Both the position numbers and the translations under genes were made by a program. Below are positions 1,278 to 9,802 of a DNA stretch of 64,000 nt, in pieces. The stretch is from Halorubrum rubrum. GTDB lineage: Archaea > Halobacteriota > Halobacteria > Halobacteriales > Haloferacaceae. Under the pieces are notes generated by a model. The model was not told where the DNA came from and did not search any database. It saw only the letters and a list, made by a program, of their open reading frames with translations. Positions within the stretch are counted from its first letter, which is position 1; each line of letters begins with the position of its first letter. Location of the stretch: NCBI RefSeq assembly GCF_024494685.1, contig NZ_JANHDM010000003.1:62001-126000 (forward strand). Direction: 5' to 3'.

Positions 1278-3068
1278 TCAGTTCGACGCCAGCTCTGCCA
1301 GCACCTGCTCGTACGTCTCTTCGATCGTCGCGTCGTCGACATCGTAGTTCCCGAGCTCGGCCTCGACCTTCTCACGGATGTTCGGCGCGATGGAGCCGTT
1401 CTTGTTCTTCCGGACGAAACCGTGGTCGATCACTGTGCTCATGTCCTCGTAGTGCGAGCTGCTCGGGTTGCTTTGTAGGCCGAACGTCCGCTGAGCCCAC
1501 TCTTTCTGGCTGCTGACCGTCTTGCCGTGCGCCTCGATGTACTTCAGAAGGCGACGCTGGCGCTCGTTCAGGTTCTCGATTGTCGAGACGATCCGGTCGA
1601 CGGCGTCCTGCTGGAACTCCGCCATGATCGAGCTCTCAACCGTCGACGACGTCGGGGATTCGGGGGCGGCGTCATCGGTCGTGGTCTCGGGCTCGGCCGG
1701 CGGTGCTAGGTCGACATCAACCTCGAACGTCTCGACGAGCGCGGCGACGTCCTCACGCGCGCCCTCGAACGCCGACCGGAACTCTTGGACGTCCGCTTCG
1801 AGGTCGGCCACCGCCTCCTGTAGAGCCTCGTTCTGCTCGGCGAACTCGTCGCGCTCGTCCTGGACGTCATCGAGTTGGTCCTGGATCCGGTCGCGCTCCT
1901 GCTTCAGCTCGTCGACGCGGCCTTGGAGCTCCTGGACGCCCTCGCCGACCTCCGCCGCAGCGCCGGCGCCAGCGCCGCCGTTCCCCGAGCCGACGAGGCG
2001 CTCCATCGCATCCGAGAGCTTGTCGACGTTCGCGAGCTCCTCCTCCAGCTCTGCCTTCTCCTCGCGAAGCCGCTCGTTCTCCTCACGGAGCCGCTCGAGT
2101 TCGTCCTCGCGCTCGGCACGGCGCTCGCGTTCGGCCTCGACGTCGTCCTGGATCTCCTCGAGGACGTTGCTCAGTTCGTCGGGGGTCTCGGGGAGCTCGA
2201 AGGACTCCTCACGAGGGTCCGGCGACCGGCGCTTCCGGACCTTCGTCGGGCCCACGAGGTCGCCGTCCGTGATGGACTCACCGCGCGCGAGGATCTCTCC
2301 GGTACCGAGGTTCGCCAGCTCGTCCTCCGAGCAGCGAAGCGCGTCCGCCGTCCGGTCGACGTCCTCGTCCCCCGGCTTGTGGGCGATGTAGTCGTCACAC
2401 AACTGGATCACTCCGTTGTGGAGGAACGCCCGACGCTGGTAGCCGGACACGACGGAGATCCCCTTGTTCCCGCCCTCGGTCGCGACCTTGATGAGCTGGC
2501 CGCGGCACCGCTTGACGTGCTCGTCGAGCTCGGGCTCGGGCGCGGAGTTCTTCGGCGCGAGGTAGTGAACCTCGTCGACGACCAGGAGGCTCTTCGTCCG
2601 GTCCCCGCTCCGGTATTTCTCGTGGGCCCGGTCGTTCAGGCTCCGGACTGCGCGGGCTGCGGCCTCGTGGACGCGAGAGCCGTCCTGCTCGTAGTCGGCG
2701 TACGTCGAGACGTCGAGGAGGATCTTCATCCCGCGGTCGAGGATCCAGCTGCCGATCTGGTCGAGGTCCTCGAGGCCGACCGCCAGGTCGACGCCCTCCT
2801 CTTCGCGAGCGCCGACGACGACGATGTCCTCGTCCTCGAGGCGGACGGGGCTGAGCGCGCCCAGCCGCTCGATGATCAGCGTCGGGATCGAGACGTCAGC
2901 GAGGTCCTCGAGGATGACGGCGAGCGTGTTGGACTTGCCCGTCCCAGAGGTCCCCTCGACACTGAGTCTGAAGTCTTGTGTCGCGACCGGATCGAAGCCG
3001 ACGTCGCCCAGCGTGACCGTGGAGTCGGCGGTCTCGCCCCCGTCCGCGAGTTCAGTCTGGGCGCTCAT
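1278..3068 (-). CDS. HerA/VirD4-like P-loop ATPase with coiled coil and C-terminal winged helix
   Basis: The N-terminal third is a RecA/FtsK-fold ATPase. The Walker A motif GTSGTGKSNT lies at about residues 39-48 and the Walker B/DEVH segment LLVVDEVHYL at about 161-170. A GNKGIS/SGYQRR segment follows, as in DUF87/HerA-type enzymes. Residues of about 290-440 form a long Glu/Arg-rich coiled coil, and roughly 490-575 look like a winged helix. The family translocates DNA or remodels DNA ends, and in mobile elements it serves conjugation, packaging or partition. Which of these applies cannot be told here, because no relaxase or portal gene is visible. It overlaps the upstream 80-residue gene by 17 bases. 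Membrane segments are absent, which argues against a classical VirD4 coupling protein. Confidence 0.85.
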   Translation of the reverse strand: MSAQTELADGGETADSTVTLGDVGFDPVATQDFRLSVEGTSGTGKSNTLAVILEDLADVSIPTLIIERLGALSPVRLEDEDIVVVGAREEEGVDLAVGLEDLDQIGSWILDRGMKILLDVSTYADYEQDGSRVHEAAARAVRSLNDRAHEKYRSGDRTKSLLVVDEVHYLAPKNSAPEPELDEHVKRCRGQLIKVATEGGNKGISVVSGYQRRAFLHNGVIQLCDDYIAHKPGDEDVDRTADALRCSEDELANLGTGEILARGESITDGDLVGPTKVRKRRSPDPREESFELPETPDELSNVLEEIQDDVEAERERRAEREDELERLREENERLREEKAELEEELANVDKLSDAMERLVGSGNGGAGAGAAAEVGEGVQELQGRVDELKQERDRIQDQLDDVQDERDEFAEQNEALQEAVADLEADVQEFRSAFEGAREDVAALVETFEVDVDLAPPAEPETTTDDAAPESPTSSTVESSIMAEFQQDAVDRIVSTIENLNERQRRLLKYIEAHGKTVSSQKEWAQRTFGLQSNPSSSHYEDMSTVIDHGFVRKNKNGSIAPNIREKVEAELGNYDVDDATIEETYEQVLAELASN

Positions 3069-3417: not shown

Positions 3418-3494
3418 GGAAGCACCGGAACGCGGTCAGAATATGGCCGCCGGCGCTGGAACGCCGACGACCGGTGCTGTCCACTAACGACAGC

Positions 3495-3863
3495 ATGTCA
3501 ACAACCGAAACCCGACCCCAAAACGGTACTGGTAGCACAGAGCAGATCACCGACCTGCGCGACCTTCGCGTCGGCGACCGCGTCCGGCTAGAGGGACGCC
3601 CCAAGCCCGTCGAGGTCGTCGAGCTCGGCGTTCGCGAGAAGCACGACGCCCGCATCCCGAAGACGATCGAGACGCCGCTCGTCCGCGTCCGTGGTGACTG
3701 GGCGAACGCCGTCGACGTCGTCCTCGCGCACAAGCTCAACCGCTGGGACGACGGTGCCGTCCTCGAGGAGCTCGACGCCATCGTCGCCTGTGAGGACGAG
3801 ACGCTCGAGCGTGGCGCGACCGTGACCGTCGAGCGCGTGGCCCGCGCCGAGGAGGTGGCCTGA
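3495..3863 (+). CDS. Hypothetical element protein (122 aa)
   Basis: This is the first gene of a rightward operon of eight overlapping genes. The reading frame is open from 3351, but I chose ATG at 3495 because the preceding 48 codons cover the operator region and TATA box. The product is an acidic protein with a beta-rich central part (LRDLRVGDRV, followed by a segment ending RVRGDW). This looks like a small SH3- or Hsp33-like barrel, but no family was recognised. The stop overlaps the next ATG (TGATG). Confidence 0.7.
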   Translation: MSTTETRPQNGTGSTEQITDLRDLRVGDRVRLEGRPKPVEVVELGVREKHDARIPKTIETPLVRVRGDWANAVDVVLAHKLNRWDDGAVLEELDAIVACEDETLERGATVTVERVARAEEVA

Positions 3864-6286: not shown

Positions 6287-6424
6287 GCGATCTACCCTCT
6301 CCTTTCCAGAGCCGGCGTCGGATCCGCGTTAGATCTTCTGTTCCGATACGAGGTGATCGGAGAAGACGGGTTCTTCTACCAAAAGAACAGTATCCCGGAC
6401 GCCCGGTACAGATTACTGCAGTCG

Positions 6425-7418
6425 ATGACAGTGAGCTTCACTGAGTGGGTCTCCGAAAGCCTCTCACACCTCCAAACCGAGAACAGATCGCTCCCAAGCC
6501 GGATCGCACGTCCGCTCTACTACGCCTACGTCGGGGCGTTGTTGAGCGTGACCAAGCGGTATCGCTGGGGGACGAACGTCTTCGACCGCGACTGGGATCT
6601 CCTCGTCGTCCTCGACGCCTGTCGAGTTGACGCGCTTCGCGAGGTTGCCGACGAGTACGGATTCGTTGGAGATGTCGAGTCGATGACCTCCGTTGGTAGC
6701 ACCTCCTTCGAGTGGATGAACCACACTTTCGACAGCAAACACCGAGGAAACGATCTCGCGGACAGCATACATCACTGGCAACACCTATACCCAGCGCGTT
6801 CTGGCGCAAAACGGGGATACGGGACATGCCGCGATGCCGTTTGGTCCCGGTGGGTATGATATCGTCCCTCCTGACGGGTTAGAGTATCTTGAGGAGTTAT
6901 GGAAAGCAAAGTTGTCGGACGACTCGGACTGGGTCGTCGGCAGCGGCGACGAGACACGCCGATCGCCGCGCCATACCACCGACCGGGCGATCGAGGCCGG
7001 CCGGACGGTCGACGCCGATCGGCTCATGGTCCATTACATGTATCCCCACGACCCGTTCCCGCTCGCCGAATCAGAATTGTTCGAACCGTTCGACCCGTTG
7101 CGGGCCGGCGATGTCTCCCGGGAGATTGTGTGGGAGCGGTACCTGGATAATCTCCGATTCGTCCTCGATGAAGTCGAGGTGTTACTCGAGAACATCGACG
7201 CGGACGACGTGGCCATCACCGCCGACCACGGAGAGGCGTTCGGCGAGTTCGGCTTCTACCGGCACGTGATCGGCTGTCCACTACCCTGTATGCGTCGCGT
7301 TCCGTGGGTGAAGACGAAGGCCTCCGATACCGGCACGTACGAGCCCGAAGCACCGGACCCGACGATGGGCGAGACCGCTTCCACGAGGGATCGGCTTAAG
7401 CAGCTCGGGTACCTGTAA
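6425..7418 (+). pseudogene. Frameshifted alkaline-phosphatase/sulfatase-superfamily protein
   Basis: The first frame from ATG 6425 encodes FDRDWDLLVVLDACRVDAL, the metal-binding Asp strand typical of haloarchaeal sulfatase-like proteins, and runs well to about 6765. The homologous continuation (AYITGNTYTQRVL, then GHAAMPFGPGG) is in the next frame and reads on through ITADHGEAFGEFG (second metal site, Asp-His) to TAA at 7418. A single shift near 6760-6770, apparently a 2-base deletion or a 1-base insertion, separates them. Intact relatives are about 330 residues and usually sit in surface-glycan islands. The gene is probably cargo and inactive unless recoded. A sequencing error is the alternative. 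Confidence 0.8.
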
Positions 7419-9071: not shown

Positions 9072-9359
9072 CTACTCCCGCGCCTCGAGCTCGGCGGCGT
9101 CGAGCTCCTCGTCGAGGTAGGCGCGGCCTTCATCGGTGATTCCATAGAGGCCGCGGTGGACCTGGTCGAGGAGGCCGTAGTTAGCCAGTTCTTTACACCG
9201 GGTACTGGCGTACTGCCGGACCGGTCCGCCCTTCGCCTCGATCGCGATCGGCGTCAGATTCCCGTACTCCCGGATCAGTTCGAGAATCCGGTCATCAGAC
9301 GGGGTCATCCAGTCGGCCGACTCGCGCATGACGTCCGTTGCTCGCGTTGCGGTGCTCAT
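9072..9359 (-). CDS. PhiH1-type winged-helix repressor
   Basis: This 95-residue protein contains RILELIREYGNLTP followed by VRQYASTRCKELANYGLL and HRGLYGITDEGRAYLDEEL, the characteristic winged helix of PhiH1-repressor-like proteins of haloarchaea. These are dimeric transcription regulators. In the phage PhiH the prototype controls lysogeny. It is transcribed leftward, away from the operon starting at 9572, and the spacer between them contains TTGTA/TACAA repeats that are candidate operators. An alternative start at the internal Met of MRESADW is possible. It is very likely the master regulator of the element. Confidence 0.85.
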   Translation of the reverse strand: MSTATRATDVMRESADWMTPSDDRILELIREYGNLTPIAIEAKGGPVRQYASTRCKELANYGLLDQVHRGLYGITDEGRAYLDEELDAAELEARE

Positions 9360-9390: not shown

Positions 9391-9456
9391 TTGTACTTGT
9401 AGCTATGGTTAATCGTCTCTTAACACTTTACAACCGTCAGTAACTTATTTGTAATA
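9391..9456. promoter_or_regulatory. Candidate operator/promoter region of the repressor and the rightward operon
   Basis: The AT-rich spacer contains GTACTTGTA (9393-9401, shared with the palindrome at 5618-5633) and an inverted pair TTACAA (9428-9433) / TTGTAA (9449-9454). A TATA-like TTATTTGTAATA (9445-9456) would start rightward transcription at about 9471-9478. A PhiH1-type repressor binding here would block the rightward promoter and possibly its own. This is inferred from sequence only. Confidence 0.5.
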
Positions 9457-9475: not shown

Positions 9476-9556
9476 GACCTGGCCTTCGCGGGACAAAACC
9501 CCGCCGGTGTGACAGCACCGACGGGCCGGGTCCCAGAGCGCCCCTCTGACGAGGGG
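9476..9556 (+). ncRNA. Candidate structured leader or small RNA with a three-way junction
   Basis: Four helices can be drawn. P1 pairs 9476-9484 with 9524-9532 (9 bp with one G-U). P2 pairs 9488-9492 with 9500-9504. P3 pairs 9505-9509 with 9516-9520 and stacks directly on P2. P4 pairs 9541-9546 with 9551-9556 around a TGAC tetraloop. P1-P3 form a compact three-way junction. The predicted transcription start lies right at its 5' edge and the next ATG is at 9572, so the RNA would be the leader of the operon or a separate small RNA. I do not recognise it as a known family. High GC makes chance helices possible, but the nested arrangement is unusual. Confidence 0.45.
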
Positions 9557-9571
9557 ATTTGACAGAGACCC

Positions 9572-9802
9572 ATGAGAAGATCAGACAACAGGGACCTTAA
9601 GAATAGTCCCAATACGGCACGAGACGGCGCAGAGATTCTCGAGAGCGCATCGATCCTCGACGACGGGCACGTCCCGGCACCAGCTGGGCACGCGCCACGG
9701 ATCGACGTCGAGCAGACCGACCCGGATAGTGAGACGCTCCGCGTGAGCGAGCGCGGTCGCGATGGCGCGTGGATCGAGTACGAACGCGTGGGGGTGCGCT
9801 GA
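9572..9802 (+). CDS. Hypothetical protein (76 aa), first gene of rightward operon
   Basis: This short hydrophilic protein begins MRRSDNRDLKNSPNTARDG and ends in a GAWIEYERVGV strand. There are no Cys or membrane segments and no known family. It follows the structured leader by 15 bases and its stop overlaps the next ATG (TGATG). This makes it the first gene of an operon of nine overlapping genes up to 13101. Confidence 0.65.
   Translation: MRRSDNRDLKNSPNTARDGAEILESASILDDGHVPAPAGHAPRIDVEQTDPDSETLRVSERGRDGAWIEYERVGVR

Follow-up and report, generated by a model that had tools for sequence, protein, structure and literature searches.

The window, the whole stretch of 64,000 nucleotides of Halorubrum rubrum DNA that was analysed, carries a rightward operon whose first gene (9572-9802, plus strand) encodes a protein of 76 amino acids with no match in Pfam or PHROG. 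Upstream lies a divergent winged-helix regulator (9072-9359, minus strand; PHROG 2440 transcriptional regulator, E 1.5e-33). The initial annotation had proposed that a structured leader RNA lies downstream of a promoter and ahead of the operon's first gene, and the present analysis supports such a leader, which adjoins the divergent regulator. A TATA-like promoter element, TTATTTGTAA (9445-9454, plus strand), stands at a fixed distance from P1, the closing stem of the leader, and the spacing from this box to AGTTGACC is ungapped in nearly all the close relatives. Across 88 leaders the A+T content is maximal 29-31 nt upstream of P1; since an archaeal TATA box lies about 30 nt upstream, the 5' end is expected a few bases before P1. 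The functional unit exceeds the 81 bases first reported (9476-9556) and runs on the plus strand from the predicted 5' end at about 9473, as deduced from the TATA position, to 9571, the last base ahead of the AUG at 9572, with conservation spanning AGTTGACC to ATG. Shine-Dalgarno-like motifs precede only 7 of the 88 starts.

A second copy of the RNA is present in the same element at 3421-3478 (plus strand), with P1 formed by AGCACCGG and CCGGUGCU, P2 by GCGGUC and GGCCGC and P3 by CGGCG and CGCCG. It differs from the copy at 9476 in its P1, P2 and start-side sequences and has the same architecture. An alternative hairpin, GCUGUC/GACAGC (3476-3494, plus strand), ends at the start codon of the gene that directly follows (3495-3863, plus strand; 122 amino acids). 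Other features of the neighbourhood, as judged by eye, include a 596-residue HerA-type ATPase-like protein (1278-3068, minus strand), beside a small divergent gene located upstream of copy 2, and, between the two leaders, ORFs resembling a frameshifted sulfatase gene (6353-7418); the leaders in L295, L300 and the Halopiger plasmid pHALXA03 (L317) have sulfatase genes as neighbours too.

Fold of the leader and its conservation as RNA

The 81 bases at 9476-9556 fold at -46.5 kcal/mol as compared to -33.0 +/- 4.0 for shuffled sequences (z = -3.4), none of 200 shuffles reaching the native energy, and the opposite strand folds less strongly (z = -2.3). The fold is thus beyond chance, and the three-way junction with four helices that had been proposed here is borne out. 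P1 pairs GACCUGGCCU (9476-9485) with GGGCCGGGUC (9523-9532), both on the plus strand; the closing stem described earlier is present, with ten pairs including a U-G pair rather than nine, and every P1 pair covaries in the family. The P2 hairpin (9488-9504; stem 9488-9492/9500-9504), identified by folding and covariation, has an A-rich loop. The P3 hairpin CGGUGU-GACA-GCACCG (9505-9520; stem 9505-9510/9515-9520) stacks on P2 without a spacer, as first described, 9504 directly abutting 9505 and J2/3 having no bases; it is the best-conserved part of the leader, with 99.8% of its cells paired. The fourth helix, P4, is the 6-bp hairpin with a UGAC loop noted initially, CCCCUC-UGAC-GAGGGG (9541-9556; stem 9541-9546/9551-9556). 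P2, P3 and P4 are likewise on the plus strand. P4 is confined to the type-1 leaders, where relatives keep it in a shifted register, and it sits inside the loop of the alternative helix described below.

A repeat of TGACAG at 9510 and 9560, to which attention had been drawn, exists in the sequence and is missing from the relatives, and is therefore probably due to chance. A hammerhead-like motif, CUGACGAG, within P4 was dismissed as unconserved (CUCACGAG in L125). A covarying C/G pair linking the P2 loop to J3/1 in type-1 leaders was set aside, since the two changes occur together in one set of four sequences. Early in the first ORF, the hairpin GGGAC-CUUAAGAAUA-GUCCC (9593-9613) recurs with other stems in the type-1 relatives; such a hairpin (P5), about 20 nt past the AUG, is persuasive by eye in type-1 members, but it scores no higher than elsewhere in the same genes and does not rise above the coding background across the family.

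The covariation test over homologues suggested in the initial annotation was carried out, and compensatory changes were found. Among the closest relatives alone just 1 of 22 pairs has changed on both sides, because the sequence is so conserved, and covariation becomes plentiful once distant members are added. In 94 distinct sequences, 96.7% of the modelled pair cells hold standard pairs, double changes occur at 15 of the 18 pairs, and covariation scores 0.566 as against 0.143 for shuffled and at most 0.10 for slid partners, in alignments that, whether adjusted manually or by the model, favour the structure. G-U pairs outnumber A-C mismatches by 75 to 3 (91 of the 94 sequences), a ratio somewhat biased by the reward that the model gives to G-U. 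The pairing, the double changes and the excess of G-U over A-C together argue that the molecule is an RNA of the plus strand, transcribed with the downstream gene. A structured core is kept by covariation across species, as is looked for in a riboswitch, and the conserved residues lie in the P2 loop (GAAA/CAGAA-like) and the P3 loop (often UGNA), not in long junctions.

Relatives and spread of the family

In blastn searches the region is present in the Halorubrum viruses BJ1 and Humcor1. In both, the leader directly precedes the gene that opens the rightward operon, and BJ1 also has a divergent winged-helix gene beside it. The region further occurs in genomes of Halobellus, Haloparvum and several species of Halorubrum, and the closest relatives share a conserved block from AGTTGACC to ATG. 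The initial label of a PhiH1-like element is not supported: the closest relatives are BJ1 and Humcor1, with HJTV-4 as a weak one, and the family model found no match in the half of PhiCh1, a relative of PhiH1, that was searched (30000-58400).

Two covariance models, both with a short calibration, were employed in scans that scored the top few candidates in each genome. The first (R1), built from ten close relatives, was run on 391 Halobacteria genomes. The second (R2) is a core model of 13 sequences in which gaps were hand-placed as N and a few P2 loops shortened, so that it serves as a search tool and not as a clean dataset. R2 matches were obtained in 97 of the 391 haloarchaeal genomes at a per-genome E-value of 0.05 or lower, where about 20 are expected by chance; more than 30 have an E-value below 1e-4, while the matches L363, L366 and L373 are likely to be chance and L374, L343 and L369 are doubtful. 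In a phylum-wide draw, matches at E-values of 0.01 or lower were confined to the Halobacteriales. Annotated cases include Haladaptatus plasmids and pHALXA03; the mobile-element context was taken from annotation in some cases and assumed in others. The isolated virus HJTV-4 carries, by sequence and fold, a type-2 leader before ORF48 (model E just 0.056), adjoined by a divergent MarR-like ORF47. Exact patterns were poor baits: the matches to the short pattern GGTGTGACAGCACC were due to chance in GC-rich genes, as were most exact-pattern matches in genome contigs, and a strict type-2 pattern found no match in IMG/VR.

Two copies per element are found in the element of the window, in Humcor1 and in a provirus in L203. 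Copy 2 of the window is recovered by R1 (E 0.0014 per genome) and by R2 (E 1.4e-10, though it belongs to the R2 seed), and in the Humcor1 provirus and Halorubrum aidingense R1 places second copies some 6 to 7 kb upstream of copy 1. In the IMG/VR contig L140 a weaker second member (2208-2268, E 0.002) precedes the first by about 3.6 kb. BJ1 (L263) retains the 5' part of a second leader (GTAGGAAGCACGGGAC...) at about 3500-3540, upstream of ORF7 and without the three-way junction, which is apparently a decayed second copy.

The first genes behind 88 leaders are diverse, forming dozens of mutually unrelated clusters, the largest with 15 members, and several encode SWIM-like zinc-finger motifs, as judged by eye. 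Because different leaders precede unrelated genes, it is improbable that the first product generally regulates its own synthesis; nor do these genes fit an autogenous leader of the ribosomal-protein type, in which the downstream gene encodes an RNA-binding regulator.

The helix ahead of the start codon

A feature outside all the models is the complementarity of the P1 3' strand to the bases directly ahead of the start codon. At the locus under study, GGGUC (9528-9532), the part of P1 that doubles as the strand of the alternative helix, can pair with GACCC (9567-9571, plus strand), which ends at the AUG. The commonest leader type has GAAGC on the start side facing GCUUC, and other leaders carry GAGAGC, GACAGC, GAACCC, CCAGCA, AAGACC, CGAAAGC or AAGGCA, each with its own complement. 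Both sides change together in close relatives, as in GGGUUC/GAACCC (L130) and GGUC/GACC (L140). The mean helix score over the 88 leaders is 11.2, as compared to 6.4 +/- 0.3 when the start-side segments are swapped among them (none of 500 permutations as high); with the GAAGC type excluded it is 9.1 as against 5.5 +/- 0.4, the maximum of 1000 permutations being 6.6. Comparison of the leaders thus shows one strand, the P1 3' strand, to have two mutually exclusive predicted uses, one of them abutting the start codon. A separate observation concerns L249 (G358:C42), which on its minus strand has two leaders about 700 bases apart (1501-1580 and 2203-2280) followed by ORFs with nearly identical N-termini (MRHERPRGNENIPTD...), the start-side complements being GCUCGG/CCGAGC and GCUUGG/CCAAGC, a natural compensatory pair.

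The two folds are predicted to be close in energy. With ViennaRNA defaults at 37 C, conditions that are not those of the haloarchaeal cytoplasm, the P1 fold of the present leader has -49.1 kcal/mol and the fold with the alternative helix forced -48.7 kcal/mol, a slightly shorter segment giving -45.9 for the alternative against -49.1 kcal/mol. Over 74 leaders the median difference is -1.3 kcal/mol, and 47 of the 74 lie within 3 kcal/mol. The inner part of P1 and the P2-P3 core need not be lost when the alternative helix forms.

Probable mode of action and relation to known systems

On the basis of these comparisons it is reasonably probable that the RNA is a cis-acting, riboswitch-like leader of a new family, which controls the translation of the first operon gene in haloarchaeal viruses, proviruses, plasmids and islands. 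The P1-P2-P3 junction starts only a few bases from the predicted 5' end of the transcript. A complete P1 would leave the start region open (the ON state), whereas capture of the P1 3' strand by the start-side copy would form a hairpin abutting the AUG and block initiation (the OFF state). ON is the probable default of the nascent RNA, because P1 is transcribed first, and some factor, be it a host or element protein, a small molecule or shortening of the RNA at its 5' end, would shift the balance. Since the same leader precedes first genes that are unrelated to one another, the signal probably reflects a condition common to many elements and not the product of the gene itself. The putative ON/OFF assignment agrees with a result from Haloferax volcanii, in which stabilising a 5'-UTR stem-loop abolished translation and destabilising it raised translation (PMC2636863).

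Three observations count against this explanation. The tight junction offers little room for an obvious ligand pocket; similar energies are partly to be expected of a P1 3' strand with two near-identical partners; and persistence of the inner P1 and the P2-P3 core in the alternative fold obscures how binding to the core would drive a switch. It is in its strongest form unlikely, namely that the junction itself directly binds a small molecule or ion and that branch migration of P1 switches the translation of virus and plasmid early genes according to the state of the host, which would constitute a new archaeal class of sensor RNA; if true, this would be a riboswitch by which mobile elements read the cell.

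Since the junction is tight and the hairpin loops are conserved, a small ligand is no more plausible than a protein partner. Recognition of the P2 and P3 loops by a host or element protein that represses or activates translation, with the start-side helix as the effector arm, is a sub-case of the switching leader, not fully exclusive of it, and is a substantial possibility, though short of an even chance. It fits the position of the conserved residues in these loops and the divergent regulator gene upstream, here and in the annotated plasmid cases, but no candidate RNA-binding partner was found, and the unrelated first genes argue against autoregulation by the first product. That the folded 5' end is a passive device, protecting the mRNA or positioning the start codon for Shine-Dalgarno-independent initiation without any switching, is rather improbable: the scarcity of Shine-Dalgarno sites, the structure right at the predicted 5' end and the diversity of the downstream genes would suit it, but the co-ordinated complementarity of the P1 3' strand to two partners is left unexplained.

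It appears still less probable that the nascent RNA acts on RNA polymerase to allow read-through of a long early operon, in the manner of the put RNA of phage HK022, which suppresses pausing and termination in early transcription (PMC9378689). The leaders do sit at predicted operon starts, with the structure beginning at the RNA 5' end, and two copies precede two rightward operons; but a start-codon-abutting helix conserved with covariation is needless for an antiterminator, and the literature searched holds no archaeal put-like RNA. A DNA-level operator or cruciform with no RNA role, suggested by the location between divergent promoters and the adjoining regulator gene, is very improbable in view of the 75:3 ratio of G-U to A-C, the nested helices with compensatory changes and the coupling to the start codon.

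That the RNA matches no known riboswitch or leader, as remarked initially, agrees with the search of Rfam release 15 (4227 models), which gave no relevant match for the leader or copy 2 at E-values up to 10, nor any at the gathering score on six relatives. The family is likewise not described in the literature searched, most subscription literature lying outside the search. It is accordingly classed as an apparently new RNA family, although its general kind, that of switching mRNA leaders, is a familiar one. With translational riboswitches it shares a 5' leader, a conserved core and a strand common to the closing stem and the start-codon helix, but it has a very tight junction, no Shine-Dalgarno masking, no known ligand and no Rfam match, and it was found only in haloarchaea, before unrelated mobile-element genes; no association with metabolic genes suggests a ligand. 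Like HK022 put it is a structured nascent RNA opening early phage transcripts (PMC9378689), but put has two stem-loops in place of a three-way junction, and the start-codon coupling here points to translation. The hp 5'-UTR of Haloferax volcanii (HVO_0721) similarly has a leader stem-loop that lowers the translation of a Shine-Dalgarno-less mRNA (PMC2636863), but is a lone stem-loop without a known alternative partner, not a three-way junction family. The nearest printed hint of the family is a remark on Hardycor1 (Graaviviridae), in which repeats, some overlapping the start codon, lie upstream of six ORFs (PMC7911831); these are also repeated sequences upstream of several ORFs, but form a simpler hairpin, and the family model found no member there. 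Another conserved leader, GTGTAGTCGGGGCGACCCGGCACGAACGACC-ATG, distinct from the one described here, recurs ahead of ORFs 045, 095, 160, 230, 235 and 245 of Hardycor1 (L386) and likewise reaches as far as the start codon; it may be a further leader RNA of this virus family.

Very few cis-regulatory RNAs have been described from archaea; among natural archaeal riboswitches, only the one for fluoride had been demonstrated experimentally according to a 2021 paper (PMC8241225). The family described here is large and sharply defined, comes with a concrete two-state model and stands before virus and plasmid operons in a group that includes genetically tractable members (Haloferax, Halorubrum and Natrinema). 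It opens to test both post-transcriptional control in haloarchaeal elements and the start of translation on long haloarchaeal leaders without Shine-Dalgarno sites.
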